Positions 29,159-40,925 of a DNA stretch of 64,000 nt are shown piece by piece (position 1 is the first letter of the stretch; each line of letters opens with the position of its first letter). The stretch covers positions 434,001-498,000 of the forward strand of contig NZ_CANMNK010000003.1 of NCBI RefSeq assembly GCF_947499265.1, given 5' to 3'. The DNA is from an uncultured Roseobacter sp. Lineage in GTDB: Bacteria > Pseudomonadota > Alphaproteobacteria > Rhodobacterales > Rhodobacteraceae. The notes under the pieces were generated by a model. The model saw only the letters and a program-made list of their open reading frames with translations, ran no database searches and was not told where the DNA came from. A program made the translations under genes and the position numbers.

Positions 29159-29965
29159 TTACTCAGGCGCTGCGTTGAAGGTAAAGAGCGTCTCGCCGTT
29201 GATCGTGTAGCTGTTGATCAGCTCTGCGGCGCGCGGGCTGACCAGCCAGTCTTCCAGTTGCACCGCCAGATCATTGCGCACATGTGCGTGCTTTTCGGGG
29301 TTCACGGCCAGAAAGGCGTATTGATTGAACAGCGCGGCATCCCCCGCATAAAGCAGATCGAGGTTGGCCTTGTTACCAAAGTTCAGCCAGCTCGCCCGAT
29401 CGGCCAGAATATAGGCGTCCAGACCCGCCGCCGTGTTCAGGCTTGCGCCCATGCCAGCGCCCACCGCACGATACCAGGCGCCGAAGGTCTCAGGCGCAAG
29501 ATCGGCAGCCCGCCACAACGCGATTTCCTTTTTGTGGGTGCCGCTGTCATCGCCGCGGCTGACAAAGGCGGGTTTGGTCACACCGATGCGTTTCAGGGCC
29601 TCGGCTGCGGATGTCGCCTGGCCAACGCCCGCGGGATCATCTTTGGGGCCGATGAAAACAAAATCGTTGTACATGATCTCGCGGCGGTAGGTGCCATAGC
29701 CTTCGGCCACGAATTTTTCCTCCGCCGCACGGGAGTGCACAAGGATCGCGTCCACGTCCCCCGCCTGCCCCAGACGCAGCGCCTGCCCGGTGCCGACGAC
29801 CAGTAACTGCACATCCAGATCAAGGTCTTCCTTGATGGCTGGCAATAGGACGTCGGCCAGACCTGAGTTCTCAAACGACGTCGTCACCGCCAGTTTGATA
29901 TCCTCTGCCAGAACGGTGGTGCTCAATGAAAGCGCGGTGAACAATGCAGCGATGCGCGTGATCAT
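29159..29965 (-). CDS. tupA: tungstate ABC transporter substrate-binding protein
   Basis: This 268-residue periplasmic protein has a Sec signal (cleavage near ALA-ED, residue 21). It shows the TupA hallmarks: TTSFENSGL at the mature N-terminus, GTGQALRLGQAGDVDAILVH, and SRGDDSGTHKKE near residue 147, which supplies oxyanion-binding serines and threonines. TupA binds tungstate with very high affinity. Here tupA is the last gene of tupB-tupC-tupA and overlaps tupC by four bases. Tungstate would serve the formate dehydrogenase encoded upstream in the window. Confidence 0.88.
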   Translation of the reverse strand: MITRIAALFTALSLSTTVLAEDIKLAVTTSFENSGLADVLLPAIKEDLDLDVQLLVVGTGQALRLGQAGDVDAILVHSRAAEEKFVAEGYGTYRREIMYNDFVFIGPKDDPAGVGQATSAAEALKRIGVTKPAFVSRGDDSGTHKKEIALWRAADLAPETFGAWYRAVGAGMGASLNTAAGLDAYILADRASWLNFGNKANLDLLYAGDAALFNQYAFLAVNPEKHAHVRNDLAVQLEDWLVSPRAAELINSYTINGETLFTFNAAPE

Positions 29966-30675
29966 GCGATGATGTCTCCTCTGAAAAACGCCTGCAATTC
30001 GGCGGTCTGCGGCGCGCTGAAAAAACCCGTTGCGAGACCGGTTTCATGTACGACGCCATGCAACATGAAGATTGCATCACGCGCCAACCGTTTGGCTTGA
30101 CCTAGATCATGTGTGGTCATGATAATGCGGGTTTTTTCGGAAAGAGCCGTTTGCAGGATGCTTTCAATGTCACGCGTCGAGGCGCCGTCCAGATTGGCGC
30201 AGGGTTCATCCAGAAACAGCACATCCGGCTTGCGGATGAGCGCCCGCGCCAGCGCCAGTTTCTGCTTTTCTCCGCCGGAAAGCCGTGTGGCCTGCAGACC
30301 CATGCGCTCCTCCAACCCGATGCGCTTGGCCCAACGGGCGATGCGCGTCTCGACTTCCGCGCGTGGCGTAGCGATCAGTTGCAGCGGATATCGCAGGTTA
30401 TCAGCAACGGTCCGGCGCAGCATGATCGGCGTCTGAAAGACGTAGGATTGGCGGTGGCGTGCTTCCTCCTCGGCGACCGCCCATGTCGCCGAGCCGCTGC
30501 TGAGCCGTTCGACACCGTGCATCACCCGCAGCAGCGTGGTTTTGCCGCTGCCATTTGGGCCGACAATCATGGTCAGGCCCTCGGATTTCAGCGTCAGATC
30601 AACCGGCCCCAGCAGGCGTTTGCCGCGCCGTCGCACGGCCACATCCTTGAGGATTAGGGGAAGGATCGTGCTCAC
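29962..30675 (-). CDS. tupC: tungstate ABC transporter ATP-binding protein
   Basis: This 237-residue ABC ATPase has Walker A (GPNGSGKTT, near residue 39), signature LSGGEKQKLALARAL, Walker B (VLFLDEPCANLD) and the H-loop in TTHDLGQA. It starts with GTG 30675, overlapping the tupB stop (GTGA). It powers tungstate import through TupB. Confidence 0.9.
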   Translation of the reverse strand: MSTILPLILKDVAVRRRGKRLLGPVDLTLKSEGLTMIVGPNGSGKTTLLRVMHGVERLSSGSATWAVAEEEARHRQSYVFQTPIMLRRTVADNLRYPLQLIATPRAEVETRIARWAKRIGLEERMGLQATRLSGGEKQKLALARALIRKPDVLFLDEPCANLDGASTRDIESILQTALSEKTRIIMTTHDLGQAKRLARDAIFMLHGVVHETGLATGFFSAPQTAELQAFFRGDIIA

Positions 30676-31376
30676 CAGCGCCCCTCCCGTTCCGTGCGGG
30701 ACAGCCAGTGGATGCAGATGTTGATGCCAATGGCCAAGGCAATCAGCACAAAGCCCAGAGCCAGCGCCAGGGCAAAATCGCCCTTGCCCGTCTCCAGCGC
30801 GATGGCCGTGGTCAGCACGCGGGTGGCATTATCGATATTGCCGCCGACGATCATGATCGCCCCCACCTCACCAATCGCCCGCCCGAAACCCGCCAGTGAG
30901 GCGGTCAGCAGGTTGCGCCGCCCGTCCCAGATCAGCGTCTTGATCCGCTGCCAGGGGCTGGTGTTGAGCGAGATCAGCAGATCGTGGTATTCCGCCCAAA
31001 GCTCGCGCATCGCCTGATGGGTGATGGAGGCAATGAGCGGCGTGATGATGATCACCTGCGCGATGATCATCGCCGTGGGCGTGAAGAGCAGGCCGAGCAC
31101 ACCAAAGGGCCCGGAGCGCGACAGCAGGATATAGACAATCAGCCCGACAACGACCGGCGGCAGCCCCATCAAGGCGTTCAGCAATGAAATGACCAGCCGC
31201 CGGAACCGGAACCGCCGGATCGCCAGAAATGTGCCAAGCGGCAGAGCAATGGCCGATGCGATGAGCAGTGCCGAGAGGCTCACCTGCAGCGAGCGCAGGC
31301 TGATCTGCATCAGGTCGGAATCGAGGGTCACAACCAGCCAGAACGCGGCGACCAGCCCTTCATAGATATCGTTCAT
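30672..31376 (-). CDS. tupB: tungstate ABC transporter permease
   Basis: This 234-residue inner-membrane protein has about five spans. Its EAA loop, AGFGRAIGEVGAIMIVGG near residue 160, contacts TupC. It begins 80 bases after the ThDP-Rieske gene on the same strand with no clear terminator between, so the tup genes may be read from the Rieske operon as well. tupB-first, tupA-last order is the reverse of the more common tupABC. Confidence 0.9.
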   Translation of the reverse strand: MNDIYEGLVAAFWLVVTLDSDLMQISLRSLQVSLSALLIASAIALPLGTFLAIRRFRFRRLVISLLNALMGLPPVVVGLIVYILLSRSGPFGVLGLLFTPTAMIIAQVIIITPLIASITHQAMRELWAEYHDLLISLNTSPWQRIKTLIWDGRRNLLTASLAGFGRAIGEVGAIMIVGGNIDNATRVLTTAIALETGKGDFALALALGFVLIALAIGINICIHWLSRTEREGRW

Positions 31377-31456: not shown

Positions 31457-33436
31457 TCAGACCAAATCCGCGTCTGTCATGATCTCCACCAACGCCGGGC
31501 CGACATGCTCCAGCGCTTCCTTGATCGCGCTTTCGATGTCCGCCGCATCCGTGACTTTCACCCCGTAGCCACCACAGAGGCGGGCAAAGGCGGCAAAGCC
31601 GGGGTTCTGCAGGTCGGTTTCCCAGACCGGCCATTCACCGGAGCGCTGTTCCTTGGAGATCTTGCCCAATTCGCCGTTGTGCAGCAGGATATGGGTGATA
31701 TCCATGCCGTATTTGACGGCGGTGGTGAACTCCATCGGGTACTGGCCAAAGCCGCCATCGCCCGAGATGGACACGACCTTGCATCCCTTCAGATCATCCT
31801 TGTCCTGCGTTGCCGCCCAGGCCCCCATGGCGGCGGGCAAACCGAAGCCGATGGAGCCCAGATAGCCGGACATCAGCACCCTTTGTGTGCCCTTTGTCTC
31901 CAGATAGCGGCCAAAGGAATAGGTGTTGTTGCCCACATCCACCGCAAAGATCGTGTTATCGGGCACCAGCCGGCCCAGAGCCTCGAAGATGGCGAAGGAA
32001 TGGATACCTTTGCCCAGATCTTCAGCCAACCGCTGCTGTTTCTCGCGCCGCCAGATGTCCCAACGGTCGGCCAGTTCGGCGATCTGGTCCGTCGCCCCTG
32101 GATTTTTGCAATCGGCGCGGGTGATCGCATCACAAAAGGCGCCGACATCGCCCCAGATGGGCAGCGCCACGGGATGGAATTTACCCAGTTGCATGCGCTC
32201 ATGGTCAACCTGAATGATCTCCTTGCTGCGCTCAATCCCGGTGTGATTGGAGAAGCTGGTGCCAAGCGCGATGATCAGATCGGCCTCATTCATGAACCAG
32301 CTGGCAATCGGCGTGCCGGAGCGCCCCAACACACCGCCCGCACAGGCGTGGCTGTCGGGCAAGAGCCCCTTGGCCTTGAAAGTGGTCAGCACCGGCGCGC
32401 CCAGTGTTTCGGCCAGACCGGCGATATCGTCGCGCACCGGATATGCGCCATGACCCACGATGATGATCGGCCGTTTGGCGGCCTTGATCATCGCGGCGGC
32501 CTTGTCGATCTCGCTTTGCGCAGGCGTCACCGGGGCGGCGGTCACACGGCCTTGCGGCGCACTTGCAGCCTGATCGGAAGGGTTGGTCTGCACGTCATCG
32601 GGAAAGATCAGATGCGCGACATTCTGCTCCACAATTGCCGTCTTGCAGGCCAGTGATGCCAGCTCCGCATGGTTGGAGCTGCCCAAAACCGGTTGCGAAA
32701 AGCTGGTGACCGCCTGGAACGCCGACAAGAGGTCGATGTCCTGAAACGCCCCCGGCCCCATCACCTGCGTCTGTACCTGCCCGGTCAACGCCAGCACCGG
32801 CGCGCGGTCCACCTTGGCATCCCAGAGGCCGGTCAACAGGTTTGTGGCCCCCGGACCCGCGATGGTCAGACAGGCCGCAGGCGTGCCCGTGAGCTTACCA
32901 TAGGCCGAAGCCGCAAAGGCTGCTGCCCCCTCATGACGGATCCCGAAGTAGCGCAGTTTGCCATCACCCACCGCCAGACGGATCGCATCCGACAGACCAA
33001 GATTGGAATGCCCCACCATGCCAAAGACCGATTGCACACCCCAGTTGGTCAGCGTCTCCACCATGACATCGGTGACCGTGCGCTCATGCGGTGGTTCGGG
33101 TGCGATACCAACGAAAATCTCACCGTCACGGATATCGACGGGGTACATCTGTTGGCCGGTGTCCTCGTGCCCACCGGGTGGCTTGCCGGTCAGCGGGTCG
33201 AAATCCCAGCCATGCCAGGGGCAGCGGATCCAACATTTGTCGTCGATACCCTTCTCGATGGAGCCTTCGCCCAACGGACCGCGCTGGTGCGGGCAATGGT
33301 TGTTCATCGCCGCCCATCGCCCGTCGAAATGCACAAGGCAGATGGACGTGGTGCGCGCCGTGACGGTTTTCACCCGGCCCTCCGGCAGATCATCAATCTG
33401 GCCCACACTGATCCAGTCGAGGGTTTCATCACTCAT
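31457..33436 (-). CDS. Rieske domain fused to a ThDP-dependent (pyruvate oxidase/acetolactate synthase-like) enzyme
   Basis: This 659-residue fusion starts at ATG 33436 with GGAG upstream. Residues about 1-110 form a Rieske [2Fe-2S] domain with Cys48-Pro-His50 and Cys72-Pro-Trp-His75. The rest is a full ThDP enzyme. The catalytic Glu lies in GIRHEGAAAFAASAYG, the middle domain follows, and the cofactor motif starts at GDGGFGQYPMEF and ends near LLHNGELGK. It looks closest to pyruvate oxidase and acetolactate synthase. A Rieske domain could accept electrons from an oxidative decarboxylation, but the substrate is unknown. It overlaps the upstream 93-residue gene by eight bases. Confidence 0.85.
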   Translation of the reverse strand: MSDETLDWISVGQIDDLPEGRVKTVTARTTSICLVHFDGRWAAMNNHCPHQRGPLGEGSIEKGIDDKCWIRCPWHGWDFDPLTGKPPGGHEDTGQQMYPVDIRDGEIFVGIAPEPPHERTVTDVMVETLTNWGVQSVFGMVGHSNLGLSDAIRLAVGDGKLRYFGIRHEGAAAFAASAYGKLTGTPAACLTIAGPGATNLLTGLWDAKVDRAPVLALTGQVQTQVMGPGAFQDIDLLSAFQAVTSFSQPVLGSSNHAELASLACKTAIVEQNVAHLIFPDDVQTNPSDQAASAPQGRVTAAPVTPAQSEIDKAAAMIKAAKRPIIIVGHGAYPVRDDIAGLAETLGAPVLTTFKAKGLLPDSHACAGGVLGRSGTPIASWFMNEADLIIALGTSFSNHTGIERSKEIIQVDHERMQLGKFHPVALPIWGDVGAFCDAITRADCKNPGATDQIAELADRWDIWRREKQQRLAEDLGKGIHSFAIFEALGRLVPDNTIFAVDVGNNTYSFGRYLETKGTQRVLMSGYLGSIGFGLPAAMGAWAATQDKDDLKGCKVVSISGDGGFGQYPMEFTTAVKYGMDITHILLHNGELGKISKEQRSGEWPVWETDLQNPGFAAFARLCGGYGVKVTDAADIESAIKEALEHVGPALVEIMTDADLV

Positions 33437-33710
33437 GGGGCTCTCCTGCATCGGTTGGCGTGGTGAAAAAGTCATAGATTTTTTGGACAATGCTCAGCAC
33501 CGCAAAGCAACCCAGCGCCCAGATCAGTAGCTCGAACGGGGCGGCATTGGTGCCGCGCACCCATTGCGCGACCAGACCGCCCTGTGGGCGCAACTCTTCC
33601 AACCCGAAGAGGCCCGGACGGTCCCAAAGCGACAGATACCAGAAGCGCGAAAGGTAGAAGAAAATCGCGGCCAGAACGGCGGCAATGAGCAGCATAACAA
33701 CGCGGCGCAT
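33429..33710 (-). CDS. small two-span membrane protein of the Rieske operon
   Basis: This 93-residue protein starts at ATG 33710 and overlaps the stop of the upstream gene (TGATG). Hydrophobic segments lie at about residues 4-22 and 57-75, with a loop LWDRPGLFGLEELRPQGG between them. It overlaps the ThDP-Rieske gene by eight bases, so translation is likely coupled. I recognise no family. It may anchor or scaffold the soluble Rieske enzymes at the membrane. Confidence 0.7.
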   Translation of the reverse strand: MRRVVMLLIAAVLAAIFFYLSRFWYLSLWDRPGLFGLEELRPQGGLVAQWVRGTNAAPFELLIWALGCFAVLSIVQKIYDFFTTPTDAGEPHE

Positions 33711-34471
33711 CAGTCCAGCACCTCCAGCGTATCGGGATCCATCCGCAAGACAAGGAGATCTCCGCGCCGCTCGACATCCCCCTCCAGAGAGATGAATTGC
33801 GCCACGTAATGGTATGCTTTTTCGGGTAAATGCTCTCCGTTCGGGCCCGTCACCAGCAGGAATTCGGAGCCGTCCACGGGTTGGGTCGAGACAAAGACGG
33901 GTGGTACCTTGCCCAACAAGCACAGGTTCGCGCAGGCCTTATGCGCCAACCCGCGCCCCGGGCGCATGGCCCCGGCAAGACATTTGCCGTCACAAATCTC
34001 GCCCGCGAGCTTCCAGCGGCCCAACGGAACGGTCTCAATCTGCGGCACCTCACCCTCTGCCGCACTGATCCCATTGGCACCGCCGCGCAGTTGCAGCATA
34101 TCGAGCGCACCCCGCTGCAGCATGGTGCCCGAAACCTGTGCGAGCTGCCCTTCCAGCGGGATCGCCCGGCTCTCGACGTTGGTCTTGCCACCGCCCGCAA
34201 GCATCAACGTGTGGCCCGCCGGGATACGCTCATTGCCTTCGGTCACGCGCAGCAGCGGATAAGGCGTGAGCTCCACCACACCGGTCACCGTTTGACGGCC
34301 GTAATCGAACCGAAATGCGCCATCGCCGGGATCATCCTGCGCCACCCCGAGCGCCAGGCCAAACCCGGAGAGCCCGCTGATGAAGAGCACACAGACCGCC
34401 AGCAACAGACCGCGCAGGGCCTTGGGTGTCGGCAGGTATCCGACGAAGAAAGGCTTGTCGTTATCGCTCAT
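33710..34471 (-). CDS. membrane-anchored protein with paired CxxxC motifs, Rieske operon
   Basis: This 253-residue protein has one N-terminal membrane span (about residues 19-41) and a long periplasmic part. A distinctive segment contains EICDGKCLAGAM and, after a GRGLAHKACANLCLLG stretch, a second CxxxC pair followed by KVPPVFV. The two CxxxC pairs and an adjacent His could bind a metal, a cluster or form disulfides. I do not know a characterised homologue. It overlaps the YedZ-like Rieske gene by four bases and the 93-residue gene by one. Confidence 0.7.
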   Translation of the reverse strand: MSDNDKPFFVGYLPTPKALRGLLLAVCVLFISGLSGFGLALGVAQDDPGDGAFRFDYGRQTVTGVVELTPYPLLRVTEGNERIPAGHTLMLAGGGKTNVESRAIPLEGQLAQVSGTMLQRGALDMLQLRGGANGISAAEGEVPQIETVPLGRWKLAGEICDGKCLAGAMRPGRGLAHKACANLCLLGKVPPVFVSTQPVDGSEFLLVTGPNGEHLPEKAYHYVAQFISLEGDVERRGDLLVLRMDPDTLEVLD

Positions 34472-35529
34472 GATATCCCCTCCTGGCCCGGCGCGGGCAC
34501 GGGTTCGACATAGGTGCCCGGCGGGTTTGCCTTGACGTCCACCAGGACGGCGGTGCCCTCGGTCTTCAGATTATAGGTCGGTACCTTCTCGGTGAAGGGA
34601 GCGGGCGACCGGCCGGAAGCCACGTCATATTGGAAACCGTGCCAGGGACAGGTCACCAGACAATCGATGATCTTCCCCTCACCCAAAGGCCCGTTCTGAT
34701 GCGCACAGGCGTTGGAAATGGCGCTGAGCTTGCCAGCGTTGAGATACACGGCGACACGGTCGCCGCCCGCCAGCAACTTGATCTTGGCAAACCCGTCTTT
34801 CATCTCCGAAACATCACAGACATGCACCCATTCGGTTGTCGGCGCCAGGAGCGCCTGATCCGCGCGCCGCTCCTGCAGCGCCGCCATCAGATGCAGCCCG
34901 CCGACCAAGACCGCGCCACCCATGAAAATCCCCGTGAAAACATGGTTCTGCTGGTCTTGCAGGATGCCGAAAGACACATGCGCGACAACCGACAGATAGG
35001 CGGGGTAGATCAGGTAATGGATGCGTTTCCACAGCGGCGGGCTGAGGAATTTCATCCAGAAATCATGACTCGTGGCCGCCAGCACGATCAGAATGAAGAG
35101 CGCAAAGATCCCGAAGGCCTCAAACGGAAACCCGGCGAGTTGGCTGTAGCTGGTATTGGCAAAGAGCAGCGCCTCGTATTTGTTCGACGACGAAAAGGCA
35201 AAATACCAATCCACGATATAGCCCGCGTGGGTGATCGCCACGAAGGTGGTCATCACACCGAAATGCCGCCGGTTGTAGAGCAGCGGCAGGAACCGCGGAT
35301 CGAGCCGCGCCAGAGGTCCGATGCACAAGATCACCGTCAGCATGACAAAGGCGCAGGCCCCGAAGGCGCGGGCATTGTGCACCTGGCTGTTGATCGGGCG
35401 CTCATGGCTCAGAATGTCCGGCGCGGCGTAGAGGAAGACATAAAGAAAGAGCGCGACCCCCAGCAGCATCACCGCGTCATAGATATACTTGTTCGTGTTC
35501 CACTGAACGGGAATGTACTTGACGCTCAT
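34468..35529 (-). CDS. ferric-reductase/YedZ-like membrane cytochrome fused to a C-terminal Rieske domain
   Basis: This 353-residue protein starts at ATG 35529. Residues about 15-215 form a six-span ferric-reductase-like (YedZ/MsrQ-like) membrane domain with candidate heme ligands His89, His101, His155, His171 and His184. Residues about 233-335 form a Rieske [2Fe-2S] domain with Cys275-Ala-His277 and Cys294-Pro-Trp-His297. It could link cytosolic or periplasmic Rieske electron carriers to heme and the quinone pool. Overlaps both neighbours by four bases. Confidence 0.85.
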   Translation of the reverse strand: MSVKYIPVQWNTNKYIYDAVMLLGVALFLYVFLYAAPDILSHERPINSQVHNARAFGACAFVMLTVILCIGPLARLDPRFLPLLYNRRHFGVMTTFVAITHAGYIVDWYFAFSSSNKYEALLFANTSYSQLAGFPFEAFGIFALFILIVLAATSHDFWMKFLSPPLWKRIHYLIYPAYLSVVAHVSFGILQDQQNHVFTGIFMGGAVLVGGLHLMAALQERRADQALLAPTTEWVHVCDVSEMKDGFAKIKLLAGGDRVAVYLNAGKLSAISNACAHQNGPLGEGKIIDCLVTCPWHGFQYDVASGRSPAPFTEKVPTYNLKTEGTAVLVDVKANPPGTYVEPVPAPGQEGIS

Positions 35530-35903
35530 TGGCTGACCTCCGCTGGCGCGGACAGGCGCACCGGGGCAATCTCCACCGGCCAGGTCTGGCGCAGGGTGAG
35601 CCCGGTCACAATGATCACGCAGATGCCAATGGGCAGGATCCATCCAACGGCATAATGCGATTTGCGCGGCGGATCATAGCGCCGGGTCCAGAGCTCCCGG
35701 CCCGTCTCGTAGAGATACCACCGCCACAAAACCAGCGGCCAGATGACCAGAATGCCAGGAATGAGCAGCGGCCTGAAAATATAGGCCTCGCGTGCATCCT
35801 CATCGATCCGGTCCATGCCGATGGTCAGAAAAATCGCGGCCACCACCGCCCCGATGCTGCCCCAGATCCGCAGCCCCATCAGGATCGCCTCTGCCTGGTT
35901 CAT
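35526..35903 (-). CDS. three-span membrane protein of the Rieske operon
   Basis: This 125-residue protein starts at ATG 35903; an upstream extension to 35954 would overlap the preceding gene further. It has three hydrophobic segments, near residues 8-30, 41-60 and 83-102, with a charged loop YDPPRKSHYA. No known family is apparent. Four-base overlaps on both sides (ATGA) make it an integral part of the operon, probably a membrane partner of the YedZ-like protein. Confidence 0.7.
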   Translation of the reverse strand: MNQAEAILMGLRIWGSIGAVVAAIFLTIGMDRIDEDAREAYIFRPLLIPGILVIWPLVLWRWYLYETGRELWTRRYDPPRKSHYAVGWILPIGICVIIVTGLTLRQTWPVEIAPVRLSAPAEVSQ

Positions 35904-37510
35904 GCAACGCCTCCGAAAGTCACGCCTGAGATCTCCGACATCTCCTTTTTCCACGTGGTCAGGTCATCATGATTGAACTGCGACAGGTGACTGTGACCAC
36001 AGGCCCGGGCCATCACCTGCATCAATTCGACCGATGCCTCAAAGAAGTTTGCCAACTGGCGCGCGGATTTCTCGACAACGATACGGTTGACCAGATGCGG
36101 CTTTTGCGTGGCAATGCCCACGGGGCAATTGTTGGTATGACAAGCGCGCATGGCCAGACAGCCGATGGCCTGCATCGCCGAATTCGAAATGGCAATCGCA
36201 TCCGCGCCAAGCGCCATGGCCTTGATGAAATCCGCGGGTTTGCGCAGGCCGCCGGTGATGACCAGCGTCACGTCGCCCCGCTCCAACCGGTCCAGATGCG
36301 CCCGCGCACGGGCCAGCGCGGGGATGGTCGGCACCGAGATATTGTCGCGGAAAATCACCGGGGCGGCCCCTGTGCCGCCGCCGCGCCCGTCCAGAATGAT
36401 ATAATCCACCCCGACAGCGAGGGCCGCGTCGATGTCTTTCTCGATATGCTGGGCGCTGAGCTTGTAGCCGACGGGAATGCCGCCCGTGCGGTCGCGCACC
36501 TCATCGGCGAAATCCTTGATCTGCGCGGGATCGGTCCAATCGGGAAACCGCGGCGGCGAGATCGCGTCCTGCCCTTCATCCAGGCTGCGGACTTCGGCGA
36601 TCTTGCCCTGGACCTTGGCACCCGGCAGATGCCCGCCGGTGCCCGTCTTGGCGCCCTGCCCGCCCTTGAAGTGAAAGGCCTGCACCTTGTCGAGCTTGTC
36701 CCAGCTGAAACCAAAACGCGCGGACGCGAGTTCGTAGAAATACCGCGCATTGGCCTCCTGCTCTTCGGGCAGCATGCCGCCTTCGCCGGAACAGATGCCC
36801 GTGCCCGCAATCTCAGCGCCGCGCGCCAGGGCAATCTTGGCAGGCTCAGAGAGCGCGCCAAACGACATGTCAGACACGAACAGCGGAATATCCAGCCGCA
36901 GCGGTTTTTGCGCATTCGGGCCGATCACCACCTCGGTGCCCACCGGCGTGTCCTCCAACAGCGGCGGTTTCGCCAGTTGCGCGGTCAGCAGCTGGATGTC
37001 ATCCCAATCCGGCAATTCCGCGCGCAGCACCCCCATGGCATCGACAACGCCGTGATGCCCGGTCTTGCTGAGCCCGTCGCGAGCATATTGCTGGATCAAA
37101 CCGGTGTAGGGCTCGCCTGTGTCGCCATGGCTCGGGTCTGCATATAGGCCCAGATAAGCATCGCGGTTGTAGGGCTGCGGATTGTCAAAACCCCATTGGT
37201 TGATCTCATCGGCATCAACCATGATCCGGTCGTCTTCGATCCAGGATTTGAACTTCGGCAGCGCTTCGTCATTGGCATAGGACGACACACCGCTGTCCAG
37301 CCGGTAATCCCAATCGTGCACGCCACAGATCAGATCCTTGCCACGCACATGGCCATCCGCCATCAGCGCACCCCGGTGCAGACAGCGCCCGTAGAACACC
37401 GAAACCTCATCGTCGAACCGCACCACCACCAGATCAACCTCGCCCACCAACGCATATTGAGGATCACGGTCCGGCAAGGTGGAAAGGGTTGCAACGAGCG
37501 TCGGTATCAT
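35900..37510 (-). CDS. Rieske domain fused to a glutamate-synthase-like FMN/3Fe-4S domain
   Basis: This 536-residue fusion begins at ATG 37510, preceded by AAGGA; an ATG at 37528 is possible. Residues about 1-105 form a Rieske domain with Cys43-Leu-His45 and Cys62-Gly-Val-His65. Residues about 150-500 match the FMN-binding domain of glutamate synthase, with the 3Fe-4S ligands Cys451, Cys457 and Cys462 in CLAMRACHTNNCPVGIATQ. There is no glutaminase domain, so it is not a complete GltB. It is the first gene of the six-gene operon. The reaction is unknown; archaeal-type GltS, N-methylglutamate synthase subunits and other FMN enzymes share this fold. Confidence 0.85.
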   Translation of the reverse strand: MIPTLVATLSTLPDRDPQYALVGEVDLVVVRFDDEVSVFYGRCLHRGALMADGHVRGKDLICGVHDWDYRLDSGVSSYANDEALPKFKSWIEDDRIMVDADEINQWGFDNPQPYNRDAYLGLYADPSHGDTGEPYTGLIQQYARDGLSKTGHHGVVDAMGVLRAELPDWDDIQLLTAQLAKPPLLEDTPVGTEVVIGPNAQKPLRLDIPLFVSDMSFGALSEPAKIALARGAEIAGTGICSGEGGMLPEEQEANARYFYELASARFGFSWDKLDKVQAFHFKGGQGAKTGTGGHLPGAKVQGKIAEVRSLDEGQDAISPPRFPDWTDPAQIKDFADEVRDRTGGIPVGYKLSAQHIEKDIDAALAVGVDYIILDGRGGGTGAAPVIFRDNISVPTIPALARARAHLDRLERGDVTLVITGGLRKPADFIKAMALGADAIAISNSAMQAIGCLAMRACHTNNCPVGIATQKPHLVNRIVVEKSARQLANFFEASVELMQVMARACGHSHLSQFNHDDLTTWKKEMSEISGVTFGGVA

Positions 37511-37737: not shown

Positions 37738-39252
37738 TTACGGACCTGATCGGCCAGACAACAGCGGATTGTTTTTGACCGCCCGCACCCCTGCGCGCGC
37801 AATCGCGACGATTGTCAAAAGGGTCAGTGTCCAGAAAAACCAGGTGATCGGACCGCGCACCAGGATCGTCGGATCGCTCCCCGACATCAGCATGGATTGG
37901 CGGAAGTTATCCTCCAGCAAGGGCCCCAGAATGAAAGCAATCAGAAAGGGCGCCGCCGGGATGTGATAACGCACCATCAGATATCCGACCCAGCCCATCG
38001 CGAACATCACGCCCACGTCGAAGATGTTGTTGTTCACCGCAAAGACGCCGTAGATGCACAGCACCAGCACCGCCGGGATCAGGATGCGTTTGGGGATGTC
38101 GGCCACATATTTGAACCCGCGAATGGCCACGGAGCCGATCATGAAGAGGAAGACGGAACTGACGATCAACCCGATAAAGAGGCCATAGATGATGTCCACA
38201 TTCAGGATGAACATCATCGGGCCGGGCTGCAGACCGTGGATCATGAAAGCCCCGATGATGATTGCGGTGATGACGTCGCCCGGCACCCCAAGGGCCAGCA
38301 GCGGGATCAGGGTGGCACCCGCGACACCGTTGTTGCCCGCCTCGGAAGCCGCGACGCCTTCGATTTCGCCCTTGCCGAAGTTTTCCTTGTTTTTCGAGGT
38401 GCGGCGCGCCTCCGAATAGCTGAGGAAAGCCGATGGGGCGGCACCGATGCCCGGGATGGACCCCAGAAAGACGCCGATGAAACTACCGCGCACGATGGAT
38501 TTGAAGCTGCGTCGGTAGTCGGCGAAAGAAACCCAGTTCTTGCCCAGCGAACGGGTCTTGCCGACATGCGCCGTGGGATGCCAGACCATCGCCAGAATTT
38601 CGGGGATCGCGAAAAGCCCGATCAGGACAGCGATGAAATTGAGGCCCCCCATCATGTTCGGATCACCGAAGGTGAAGCGGTTGGTGCCATAGACCAGATC
38701 AAGCCCGATGGTGGCCAGCAAGAGCCCCAGGAGCGCCGATAGCGCGCCACGCAACAGGCTTTCCCCCGACACGCCCGCGATGATGGTCAGGGAAAACAGG
38801 ATCAGCGTGAAAAATTCCGGCGGCCCAAAGCTGAGCGCGAAAGACGCCAGCCAGCCCGCAAAGAGAATGAGCGCGAGGTTGGAGATCACATCTGCCGTGC
38901 AGGACGCCCAGAGCGCCATGCCCAGCGCCCGGCCCGCCTCGCCCTTTTCCGCCATGGGGTAGCCGTCGAGGATCGTGGCCGAAGAGGCCGGTGTGCCCGG
39001 TGTCTTGATCAGGATTGCCGGGATCGACCCGCCAAAAATGCCGCCCTTGTAGACGCCGAGCAGCAGCAGAATGCCGGTGATCGGCTGCATGGCAAAGGTG
39101 AAGGGCAGCGTTAGCGCCACGGCCATGGTGGCAGACATGCCGGGGATCGCCCCGCCGACCACGCCGATGGCGACACCGACAAAAAGCGCAAGGAACGCTT
39201 CGATGTTGCCGACAAGGCTCAGACCCGCCGCGATGCTGTCGAGAAAACTCAT
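37738..39252 (-). CDS. tripartite tricarboxylate transporter large permease (TctA)
   Basis: This 504-residue, about 12-span membrane protein has the TctA signature: GGAIPGMSATMAVALTLP near residue 34 and GGSIPAILIKTPGTPASSAT near residue 73. It imports a carboxylate together with TctB and TctC. It overlaps the tctB gene by four bases. The substrate is unknown. The LysR gene is divergent from the binding-protein gene, and the SDH/fumarase-like genes nearby suggest a substituted di- or tricarboxylate. Confidence 0.9.
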   Translation of the reverse strand: MSFLDSIAAGLSLVGNIEAFLALFVGVAIGVVGGAIPGMSATMAVALTLPFTFAMQPITGILLLLGVYKGGIFGGSIPAILIKTPGTPASSATILDGYPMAEKGEAGRALGMALWASCTADVISNLALILFAGWLASFALSFGPPEFFTLILFSLTIIAGVSGESLLRGALSALLGLLLATIGLDLVYGTNRFTFGDPNMMGGLNFIAVLIGLFAIPEILAMVWHPTAHVGKTRSLGKNWVSFADYRRSFKSIVRGSFIGVFLGSIPGIGAAPSAFLSYSEARRTSKNKENFGKGEIEGVAASEAGNNGVAGATLIPLLALGVPGDVITAIIIGAFMIHGLQPGPMMFILNVDIIYGLFIGLIVSSVFLFMIGSVAIRGFKYVADIPKRILIPAVLVLCIYGVFAVNNNIFDVGVMFAMGWVGYLMVRYHIPAAPFLIAFILGPLLEDNFRQSMLMSGSDPTILVRGPITWFFWTLTLLTIVAIARAGVRAVKNNPLLSGRSGP

Positions 39253-39740
39253 GGCAGCCTCAGAAACTCACCCTGCGGGATGGCGACCCCCGCCACATGG
39301 GCAAAAAATGCATAAAGCACCAGCGGCACAATTACCGCGCAGACAATGGCGGTGATCGGGTGGCGCGTGCGGACCAGAAACGCAGAGGCGACAAACACCA
39401 GCATGGAGGTCAGTACCATACCGAGCCTGGGCAGCAGGAACATCGTCAGCCCCATGAGCACGGCCATGGCCGCAAGTCTGAGCCAGGCCGCGCCGGTATC
39501 CTCGATCGGGTCATTGACCGGTTCATCCGTACCTTGCATCTGCAAACCGGAAAAGATCAGACCAAGCCCCGTCAAGCCGGTGAACCCCGCGAGCGCGTAG
39601 GGCCAAAAGAGCGGCGACAGGACGATATTGCCCACATTGCTGGGCGAGGAAACCCATTGCGGAATGGCGAAAAGGGCAAGGAACGCAGCCACGATCAGGG
39701 CACCGCCCCCCAGACGCAACTGCACCTGTCGTTGTGTCAT
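39249..39740 (-). CDS. tripartite tricarboxylate transporter small permease (TctB)
   Basis: This 163-residue protein has four membrane segments in the TctB arrangement, with a polar loop QGTDEPVNDPIEDTG in the middle. It pairs with TctA, whose start overlaps its stop (ATGA). It is separated from the binding-protein gene by an intrinsic terminator-like hairpin. Confidence 0.82.
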   Translation of the reverse strand: MTQRQVQLRLGGGALIVAAFLALFAIPQWVSSPSNVGNIVLSPLFWPYALAGFTGLTGLGLIFSGLQMQGTDEPVNDPIEDTGAAWLRLAAMAVLMGLTMFLLPRLGMVLTSMLVFVASAFLVRTRHPITAIVCAVIVPLVLYAFFAHVAGVAIPQGEFLRLP

Positions 39741-39774
39741 CTACACCCCTCCCATCCGGAGTCCGCACCATAAA

Positions 39775-39805
39775 AAACGCCGGACCATCGCGCGGTCCGG
39801 CGTTT
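39775..39805 (-). terminator. intrinsic terminator between tctC and tctB
   Basis: A perfect 12-bp stem, AAACGCCGGACC / GGTCCGGCGTTT, with a seven-base loop lies 29 bases after tctC on the minus strand and is followed by TTTTTTA. It is inside the tctCBA operon, so it should lower permease transcription relative to the binding protein. Confidence 0.85.
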
Positions 39806-39834
39806 CAGCGTCGTGGATCGGCAAGGCCGCCCGC

Positions 39835-40809
39835 CTAGCCTTCAATCCTCATGCCCAAATCGTCAACAAGTTTCCGGAAGGTGTCGTATTGCGCCCGGAT
39901 GAATTCGTTTGCCTCCTCGGGCGACATGACCCGAATGATCGACCCGCGCGCCTCCATGGAGCTGACGAACTCCTCATCCGCAGCGGCGGCTGTCATCCAC
40001 TCGCCCCATTTGTCGGCAACCTCATCCGGCAACCCTGCAGGCCCGGCGATGCCCGTCCAGCCGACCATCTGCTCCAGCTCCGGATGCCCCAGCGATGTCG
40101 CCGTCGGCGCATCAAAACCCTCGACGGGCTCGGCGGTGGTGACCATCAGCGCCCGCATCTGGCCATTGGCCACAAAGCTCGCCAGCGCCGAGCTGTTGGT
40201 GCAGAGGAAATCCGCCGTCCCATTCAGAACAGCTGTGGCCGCAGCCCCGCCGCCCTGCTGCGGAATATGCGTCGCAGCATTGGCCGCATCTTCCAGCCCG
40301 AAGGCATTTAGGACCATCGCCGCCGCCAGATGCGGCCCCGAGCCGACACCGGAAGACGAAAAGCTCAGACCATCGCCCTTGGCCGCCGCCAGCACGTCCT
40401 CCATCGACATCAGGTCGGAGGTCGCAGAGACCACGCAGGCAAAGGGGTTGATCTCGTAAACGGTGACAAAGCGGAAATCGTCGAGCGTATAGGGCAGCGT
40501 CGCTTTCATCGCCGGGTTCACCGAATGCGATCCCACGCGCGCAAAGAGCATCGTGTAGCCATCCTCCTTGGCGTTTTGCACGGCAACCGATCCTGTCGCC
40601 CCCCCCGCGCCCGTCACATTCGCCATGACCAGAGGCTTGCCCACCGCCGCCCCCAGCGGCTCTGCAATTGTCCGCGCGGAGATATCGGTGGCACCGCCCG
40701 CACCGTAGGGAATAACCATATTAATGGGCCGTTCAGGATACTCCGCAAGCGCCGCGCCAGCGATCCCAAGGCTCAAAGCGCAGACCGCGCCGAGTGTTCT
40801 AAAAGACAT
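39835..40809 (-). CDS. tripartite tricarboxylate transporter binding protein (TctC/Bug family)
   Basis: This 324-residue periplasmic protein has a signal peptide (cleavage near ALA-EY, residue 23). The Bug-family pattern is clear: YPERPINMVIPYGAGGATD at the mature start, then an NVTGAGGATGSVAV segment. It binds a carboxylate for the TctAB permease. The ATG at 40809 follows GGGAGGAA; an in-frame ATG 27 bases upstream is disfavoured. Divergent from the LysR gene. Confidence 0.9.
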   Translation of the reverse strand: MSFRTLGAVCALSLGIAGAALAEYPERPINMVIPYGAGGATDISARTIAEPLGAAVGKPLVMANVTGAGGATGSVAVQNAKEDGYTMLFARVGSHSVNPAMKATLPYTLDDFRFVTVYEINPFACVVSATSDLMSMEDVLAAAKGDGLSFSSSGVGSGPHLAAAMVLNAFGLEDAANAATHIPQQGGGAAATAVLNGTADFLCTNSSALASFVANGQMRALMVTTAEPVEGFDAPTATSLGHPELEQMVGWTGIAGPAGLPDEVADKWGEWMTAAAADEEFVSSMEARGSIIRVMSPEEANEFIRAQYDTFRKLVDDLGMRIEG

Positions 40810-40925
40810 CGTATTCCTCCCAGTATGACCGGCCATTCGGACCCCCCGGGCGAAGCCGATGGCGCCCTTGACAATTGGTAACGTTAAGACATGCTTTATA
40901 GAAGTAATAATAAATTACAAAATCC

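Follow-up and report, generated by a model that had tools for sequence, protein, structure and literature searches.

A conserved six-gene unit with three Rieske fusion proteins in a Roseobacter genome, tentatively read as a transmembrane electron-transfer system

We analysed a window of 64,000 nucleotides from an uncultured Roseobacter sp. (RefSeq assembly GCF_947499265.1, contig NZ_CANMNK010000003.1, positions 434,001 to 498,000), the whole stretch to which the coordinates below refer, and found in it a run of six overlapping genes, here called A to F, three of which encode fusions with a Rieske domain. The six genes form a real functional unit, which is made up of two separable modules: an enzyme module, AF, and a membrane module, BCD(E). 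On the reading that we favour, which is quite possible though short of probable, they would constitute one transmembrane electron-transfer system running from F and A to C, then to D and on to a periplasmic acceptor. We file the unit as a variant of the transmembrane electron-transfer systems of the ferric reductase domain (FRD) type. Its genes, which involve flavin mononucleotide (FMN) and thiamine diphosphate (ThDP) enzyme domains, are as follows.

35900..37510, minus strand: A, Rieske [2Fe-2S] domain with a glutamate-synthase-type FMN/[3Fe-4S] domain, 536 amino acids (Pfam, invariant ligands)
35526..35903, minus strand: B, small protein with three predicted membrane spans, 125 amino acids (hydropathy)
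34468..35529, minus strand: C, YedZ/MsrQ-class ferric-reductase-like membrane domain with a C-terminal Rieske domain, 353 amino acids (Pfam)
33710..34471, minus strand: D, one membrane span and a large, presumably periplasmic part, 253 amino acids (motif, AlphaFold2)
33429..33710, minus strand: E, small protein with two predicted membrane spans, 93 amino acids (hydropathy)
31457..33436, minus strand: F, Rieske domain with a PoxB-like ThDP enzyme, 659 amino acids (Pfam, NCBIfam, PDB)

The six reading frames lie where the first-pass annotation had placed them (31457-37510, minus strand) and overlap at each junction, by 4, 4, 4, 1 and 8 bases at A/B, B/C, C/D, D/E and E/F. Its proposal of one overlapping transcript is upheld as far as these overlaps go, but a transcript is not demonstrable from sequence: the promoter scan of the operon gave no excess over shuffles, and the terminator scan was likewise uninformative. 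That all three Rieske domains possess complete ligand sets was confirmed by Pfam and by alignments, in which C43/H45/C62/H65 of A (8/8 aligned), C275/H277/C294/H297 of C (43/43) and C48/H50/C72/H75 of F (11/11) are invariant; the alignment of C comprised the window and 42 of 44 relatives, omitting a doubtful match (L150) and a truncated one (L201). The Pfam scan detected no non-heme iron catalytic domain of the Rieske oxygenase type after the Rieske domain of A, C or F, and no family above cut-off in B, D or E. A search of the whole genome returned nine Rieske matches. Of 200,000 simulations in which nine matches were scattered evenly, 37 placed three of them within 4.3 kb, indicating that three Rieske domains in 4.3 kb are more than chance. 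A triplication within the operon was considered and rejected: C and F share 31% identity and A 19-22% with both, values no nearer than to some Rieske proteins elsewhere in the genome, which argues against a recent duplication.

The distribution of the fusions was surveyed in 292 genomes of the order, source genome included, with full-length C defined as a match with E below 1e-120. For A, 49 genomes matched at E<=1e-100 and 30 were counted as Rieske-type; the others were G133, where A is in two pieces, G010, where it is partial, and 17 genomes that match only from residue 132 onward. The two of these 17 that were read (L069 and L240) contain CDGSH motifs. C was present in 31 genomes, F in 26 and Rieske-type A in 30, and all three fusions occurred in 22 of the 38 genomes holding any. 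The remainder held C alone (5), A alone (5), F alone (1), C and F (2), C and A (2) or A and F (1). In the genome entered as having F alone, G102, F adjoins a CDGSH-type A; in G154 the contig ends at E, and a gap in the assembly may be why F is absent there. Fisher p values for co-occurrence ranged from 9e-27 to 1.5e-23, and from 3e-9 to 1.1e-7 with the genomes collapsed to 112 genera. The genome search for which the first-pass annotation had called thus found the three fusions mostly together and not mostly separate.

Gene arrangement was compared at 80 named loci, the best of 568 confirmed stretches, which were picked for F, so that counts among them describe near relatives of F; many of these loci end early, and gene orders and genus sets were tallied by hand. 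A, here including CDGSH forms, lay within the locus at 53/80 and D at 41/80. C was scored at 42, but the match in L150 runs into the Rieske region of F itself, leaving 41 credible cases, and D was found at all 41. A, C, D and F stood together at 34 of the 80 loci, in the relative orders A-CD-F (17), A-F-CD (8), CD-A-F (3), F-A-CD (2) and DC-A divergent from F (4). Across the loci compared, B, C and D, mostly with E, keep together, and A and F make a second pair; at L064-L067 B, C and D are present but no match to E was found. The genomes G059, G169, G230 and G259 each have the two modules apart, at different sites. This separation, and the occurrence of single modules elsewhere, would be expected if two unrelated gene sets had come to adjoin by accident, a reading already disfavoured and highly improbable. 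Both modules are still present in those four genomes, their co-occurrence remains significant at genus level, and five relative gene orders are found, all of which argue against accident. The single membrane chain of the first-pass annotation therefore needs amending: its electron-feeding scheme stands, but the unit consists of two modules that also live apart.

Titles of the named loci are mostly alphaproteobacterial. Several Gammaproteobacteria have F, some with A as well, and one gammaproteobacterial locus (L209) contains F, C and D together with an antiporter. Single contigs of metagenome-assembled genomes are titled Campylobacteraceae and Thermoleophilia. On haloarchaeal plasmids F is 57-59% identical and A, in three of four, 60-62%; a Mycobacteroides plasmid encodes an F of 52% identity.

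C combines Ferric_reduct (46.8 bits, cut-off 28) with Rieske (57 bits) in Pfam. Its H89, H101, H155, H171 and H184 are invariant in 43/43 rows, and R87 and R88 in 33 rows. On sequence comparison, H101, H171 and H184 are taken to correspond to FRD (NOX2) positions 115, 209 and 222, and arginines stand at the first FRD histidine position, just before H89. With a Ferric_reduct domain, three histidines and the arginine signature, C has the features of YedZ/STEAP-class FRDs, the mapping to NOX2 being our own; three histidines with arginine at the first position is the YedZ/STEAP pattern given in PMC3591440 (this and the other papers are cited for the parts consulted). Hydropathy indicated five membrane spans in C, three in B, two in E and one in D. 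The AlphaFold2 model of C (mean predicted local distance difference test score (pLDDT) 81.9, predicted template modelling score (pTM) 0.70) shows six long helices and, after them, a Rieske fold. This fold is nearest to soluble Rieske ferredoxins, with a CarAc-type ferredoxin as the best Foldseek match (E 1.7e-7), and there was no membrane protein among the 50 Foldseek matches listed; as modelled, the soluble-ferredoxin-like Rieske domain of C is of the electron-shuttle type. Basic residues follow the last span and also occur in the loops preceding spans 3 and 5, which by the positive-inside rule would place the Rieske domain in the cytosol. B gave only sub-threshold Pfam matches, to PepSY_TM (15.5 bits) and Ni_hydr_CYTB (15.3 bits).

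The domain pair of C is already in print: PMC3591440 gives Rieske among several electron-transfer extensions of FRDs, the parts consulted naming no operon, partner or function. Like the long FRDs of NOX and ferric reductases, C joins a heme domain in the membrane to an electron-input domain at the C-terminus, but this is Rieske and not FAD/NADPH (FAD, flavin adenine dinucleotide), and the first canonical histidine is replaced as in YedZ/STEAP. The periplasmic methionine sulfoxide reductase MsrPQ (YedYZ) offers a second likeness, having a heme domain of the same YedZ/MsrQ class; beside C, too, lies a partner gene, D, whose product has a presumably periplasmic part. It differs in that C falls below the MsrQ cut-off and carries Rieske, that two enzymes accompany it, and that Pfam detected no Oxidored_molyb/molybdopterin domain (MsrP) in any of the six genes.

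The motif DxxC-x4-M-x7-HxxCxxxC of D is kept in 36/36 rows (the window and 35 of 43 relatives), the conserved residues being D161, C164, M169, H177, C180 and C184. D had been described as a membrane-anchored CxxxC-CxxxC protein; the first cysteine, C160, is not kept in distant relatives. The AlphaFold2 model had a mean pLDDT of 88.4 and a pTM of 0.78. Its best PDB sequence match reached only E 0.1, and a fold search gave no match at E<=0.001, only weak ones to SilF, single-stranded-DNA-binding proteins and lysyl-tRNA synthetase, which we take to be OB-fold proteins; our guess from the model is that D may consist of two OB-like domains. A phylum-wide search with D yielded matches in 10 of 398 genomes; in three, the match is confined to the C-terminal part. 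In the 3/3 genomes examined, short proteins whose starts are signal-like and whose motif resembles that of D stand in a row with SCO1/SenC, from which the D domain seems to serve periplasmic metal/redox (or thiol) chemistry. These three-gene sets (L231:8286-10032, L232:7631-9183 and L233:8067-9851) comprise a short DTWC...HHxCAxWC protein, a second short Cys-containing protein and SCO1/SenC, with no Pfam family for the first protein (one tested) or the second (two tested).

F combines Rieske (60 bits) with three TPP_enzyme domains (111-121 bits). In these three ThDP-enzyme domains the catalytic Glu (E169) and D560 and G561 of the GDG-type motif are invariant in 11 rows, and GDG reads SDG in the four archaeal rows. 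The F match begins at residue 8 or earlier at all 80 named loci and in all 26 order genomes with F, indicating that the Rieske part is constant there. The best PDB match was E. coli PoxB (pyruvate:quinone oxidoreductase; 3eya, 304.6 bits), with acetohydroxyacid synthase (AHAS) at 260.2 bits. The likeness to PoxB extends over the ThDP domains, but F carries an N-terminal Rieske domain and scores below the NCBIfam cut-offs: its best model was 'pyruvate oxidase' (375 bits, cut-off 742), and it reached the cut-off in none of the 25 families listed of 59 matched. We infer that F is a 2-oxoacid dehydrogenase whose electrons would leave by its Rieske domain, and that it probably binds FAD. A PoxB-type 2-oxoacid is the best substrate lead; of the growth substrates that the first-pass annotation had named, 2-oxoacids are thus retained, for F, on the strength of the PoxB match, but amino acids and methylamines found no support in these analyses.

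In A, Pfam detected Rieske (43 bits) and Glu_synthase (301 bits). Sequence comparison indicates that A retains the FMN barrel of glutamate synthase (GltS), and C451, C457 and C462 of its CX5CX4C [3Fe-4S] motif are invariant (8/8). Unlike glutamate synthase, A has an added Rieske domain, and no glutaminase (amidotransferase) or other glutamate synthase domain scored over cut-off in Pfam. A further difference lies in a loop of the synthase that belongs to the 2-oxoglutarate-binding pocket: QGAKPGEGGQLPG (KPGEGGQ) in the GltB-like protein of the same genome reads QGAKTGTGGHLPG (KTGTGGH) in A, and the haloarchaeal A and the CDGSH form in the alignment have the same letters as A here. That GltB-like protein is encoded by a separate gene with a 1514-codon frame. 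Both points speak against electrons flowing in reverse, an improbable alternative by which quinol or the periplasm would supply C and, through Rieske, a reductive reaction of A such as reductive amination, the Rieske domain of F sensing or gating. Such a flow would suit the FMN/[3Fe-4S] core of A, which is shared with an enzyme that catalyses a reduction (PMC8097209), but FRE and NOX enzymes send electrons outward (PMC3591440). The genome has two more stand-alone GltS-like FMN-domain genes (G000:C10:110951-111898 and G000:C6:312314-313288), the product of the latter being without CX5CX4C in the alignment.

Tandem CDGSH domains replace the N-terminal Rieske domain of A in L069, L138 (a Vibrio plasmid) and L240; CDGSH-bearing relatives are about 70% identical to A over the FMN domain. 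CDGSH-GltS fusions of this kind have the type 5 CISD architecture, which PMC3174974 describes from Vibrio and Pelagibacter. A thus resembles type 5 CISD in bearing a [2Fe-2S] domain at the same N-terminal place before the GltS FMN domain, and differs in that this domain is Rieske instead of tandem CDGSH. Two unrelated [2Fe-2S] domains alternate at this position, which suggests an electron role for the N-terminal domain of A.

Taken together, the favoured system would work as follows. F, the PoxB-like ThDP enzyme, probably with FAD, would oxidise a 2-oxoacid or a related carbonyl compound, and A, the GltS-like FMN/[3Fe-4S] enzyme with the altered synthase loop, would oxidise a second compound. 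Neither has a predicted membrane span, and from each the electrons would leave one at a time by the attached Rieske domain and enter the Rieske domain of C on the cytosolic side, at the place of the FAD/NADPH domain in NOX and ferric reductases. The heme or hemes of C would then carry the electrons over the membrane to a metal site in D, with B and E as small subunits, and D would pass them to a periplasmic acceptor, most likely to help repair or keep redox balance during stress, much as MsrQ works for MsrP. A further link between A and an FRD wire, perhaps of a single event, comes from the A-only genomes: in three of the five, all of one genus, the lone A adjoins MsrP and MsrQ genes, which in L236 score 432 bits (cut-off 207) and 133 bits (cut-off 130) on their NCBIfam models. 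The distance is within about 4 kb in L236, L237 and L238 (G032, G111 and G136), and a ClpB-like gene stands on the other side of the lone A in L236. The G102 locus contains an MsrQ-like match (34%) without MsrP.

PoxB reduces ubiquinone, and as the nearest solved relative of F it lends weight to an alternative close to the model of the first-pass annotation, in which F and A would be quinone-coupled catabolic dehydrogenases oxidising imported carboxylates, C would deliver to the quinone pool and D would be an accessory or assembly factor. MsrQ, moreover, is termed a quinone-binding subunit (PMC8238504). The presence of D at every named locus with a credible C fits a dispensable factor poorly. 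C is of the YedZ/MsrQ class, whose characterised member serves a periplasmic partner, so that quinone is no likelier an acceptor than one in the periplasm (D). We consider the quinone-coupled alternative unlikely, though a serious contender. The earlier proposal that two oxidising enzymes feed a heme protein through Rieske clusters stays the best model, with its quinone acceptor as a live rival.

Several observations weigh against the transmembrane system that we favour. Electron flow and its direction in the chain are inferred only. C scores just 33.6 bits on the NCBIfam MsrQ model, far below the cut-off of 130, and with the first canonical FRD histidine absent it may bind no more than a single heme. 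The short proteins likened to D are remote from it (E 1e-10 to 4e-9), and no match indicates a cofactor or acceptor of D. Among the 31 genomes with C, 5 have BCD(E) but neither A nor F, and among the 30 with A, 5 have neither C nor F, indicating that neither module needs the other everywhere. The AF pair on haloarchaeal plasmids has no C within the stretches seen, and plasmid records gave no full-length C match outside Rhizobium. The MsrPQ neighbourhood of the lone A may be a single inherited event. The source genome has no antiporter match, a point that bears equally on the defence role discussed below.

We tentatively propose, with more doubt than confidence, that the unit represents an undescribed redox pathway in which a fused Rieske domain would be the common plug, connecting a ThDP 2-oxoacid oxidase and a GltS-like enzyme to a NOX/MsrQ-like heme wire and to a new class of periplasmic Cys/His/Met metal protein. 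As part of that proposal, the pathway would be common, at least in part, to Alphaproteobacteria, Gammaproteobacteria, haloarchaea and one actinobacterium. If so, F would to our knowledge be the first ThDP enzyme with a built-in Rieske cluster as electron acceptor, and bacteria would have a route for electrons of carbon compounds over the membrane without NAD(P)H, with Rieske as a reusable connector. The D domain, for which neither the sequence search nor the fold search gave a solved relative, would join periplasmic metal biology, and two orphan fusion families, ThDP-Rieske and GltS-Rieske/CDGSH, would be accounted for. Should the electrons run the other way, the conserved set would still offer genetics a clear target. 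Neither the operon nor a Rieske-ThDP enzyme was found described in the one open-access library searched, most subscription papers and bioRxiv preprints lying outside its scope; within it the combination appears undescribed, as first suggested, except that the parts consulted of PMC3591440 and PMC3174974 already contain the FRD-Rieske and CDGSH-GltS fusions. Since the latter paper reports the CDGSH form from Vibrio and Pelagibacter, the question reaches abundant marine bacteria.

Two transporter gene sets flank the unit in the window.

37738..40836, minus strand: tripartite tricarboxylate transporter TctA, TctB, TctC (Pfam for TctA and TctB; TctC labelled by position)
29159..31376, minus strand: tungstate-type ATP-binding cassette transporter TupB, TupC, TupA-like (NCBIfam; TupC labelled by position)

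The tungstate-type genes lie about 80 bases downstream of F; the Tup permease subfamily scored above its NCBIfam cut-off, and the TupB and TupA equivalogs below theirs. Both sets adjoin the unit in the source genus (L039-L044). Outside that genus, L208 was the only one of the loci scanned with Tct matches, which are 32-36% identical and lie 8-10 kb from F. In L059, A has TRAP transporter genes next to it, and homologues of these occur at L060 and L061. Carboxylate import by Tct or TRAP would favour the quinone-coupled dehydrogenases, but the transporter type beside the unit changes between genera (Tct, TRAP, antiporter, MFS, Mem_trans), so that no neighbouring transporter is a safe substrate clue; deducing the substrate from neighbouring genes was rejected for the same reason. 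Among the few neighbours scanned, the BCD(E) copies without A and F have no enzyme in common.

Other neighbours would suit a role in defence against oxidants or electrophiles, with AF, a K+/H+-type antiporter and an extracytoplasmic function (ECF) sigma factor as a detoxifying or redox-homeostasis regulon whose electrons BCD(E) would dispose of or supply. We regard this as rather unlikely; it concerns purpose and is compatible with the transmembrane system. An antiporter occurs at 28/80 named loci (in L045 it matches Na_H_Exchanger in Pfam, and its nearest NCBIfam model, a K+/H+ antiporter, is below cut-off), leaving 52/80 without one. Homologues of ECF sigma and a zf-HC2 anti-sigma factor, verified by Pfam in L171, were found at 6/123 loci in a BLAST scan that includes some genomes twice, and no zf-HC2 homologue at 117/123, several of which end early. 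MerA/lipoamide-type disulfide reductase genes lie near A or F in L229 and on haloarchaeal plasmids, but plasmid neighbourhoods are often mixed. In Rhizobium L135, C and D have as neighbours an ECF sigma gene, a pair of NrsF-like proteins that stay under the cut-off of 300 (102 and 108 bits) and a chlorite-dismutase-family-annotated protein. Antiporter, ECF sigma, MsrPQ and the L135 neighbours point weakly to redox stress or repair.

On the Rhizobium plasmids L135 (1704-11074) and L136, C, D and small genes also lie beside a coenzyme A transferase, OpgC and a ThDP protein that is AHAS-like and carries no Rieske domain, and L232 repeats OpgC and ThDP beside its D-like protein. A DUF5996-type protein occurs near F at 14/123 loci by BLAST (for example L206:9295-9978 and L211:9150-9986), with Pfam agreeing in 2/3 tested. 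A protein of about 220 amino acids homologous to L181:12874-13557, with a hydrophobic start and no Pfam match (two tested), recurs in L068, L150, L159, L177, L179, L181 and L206.

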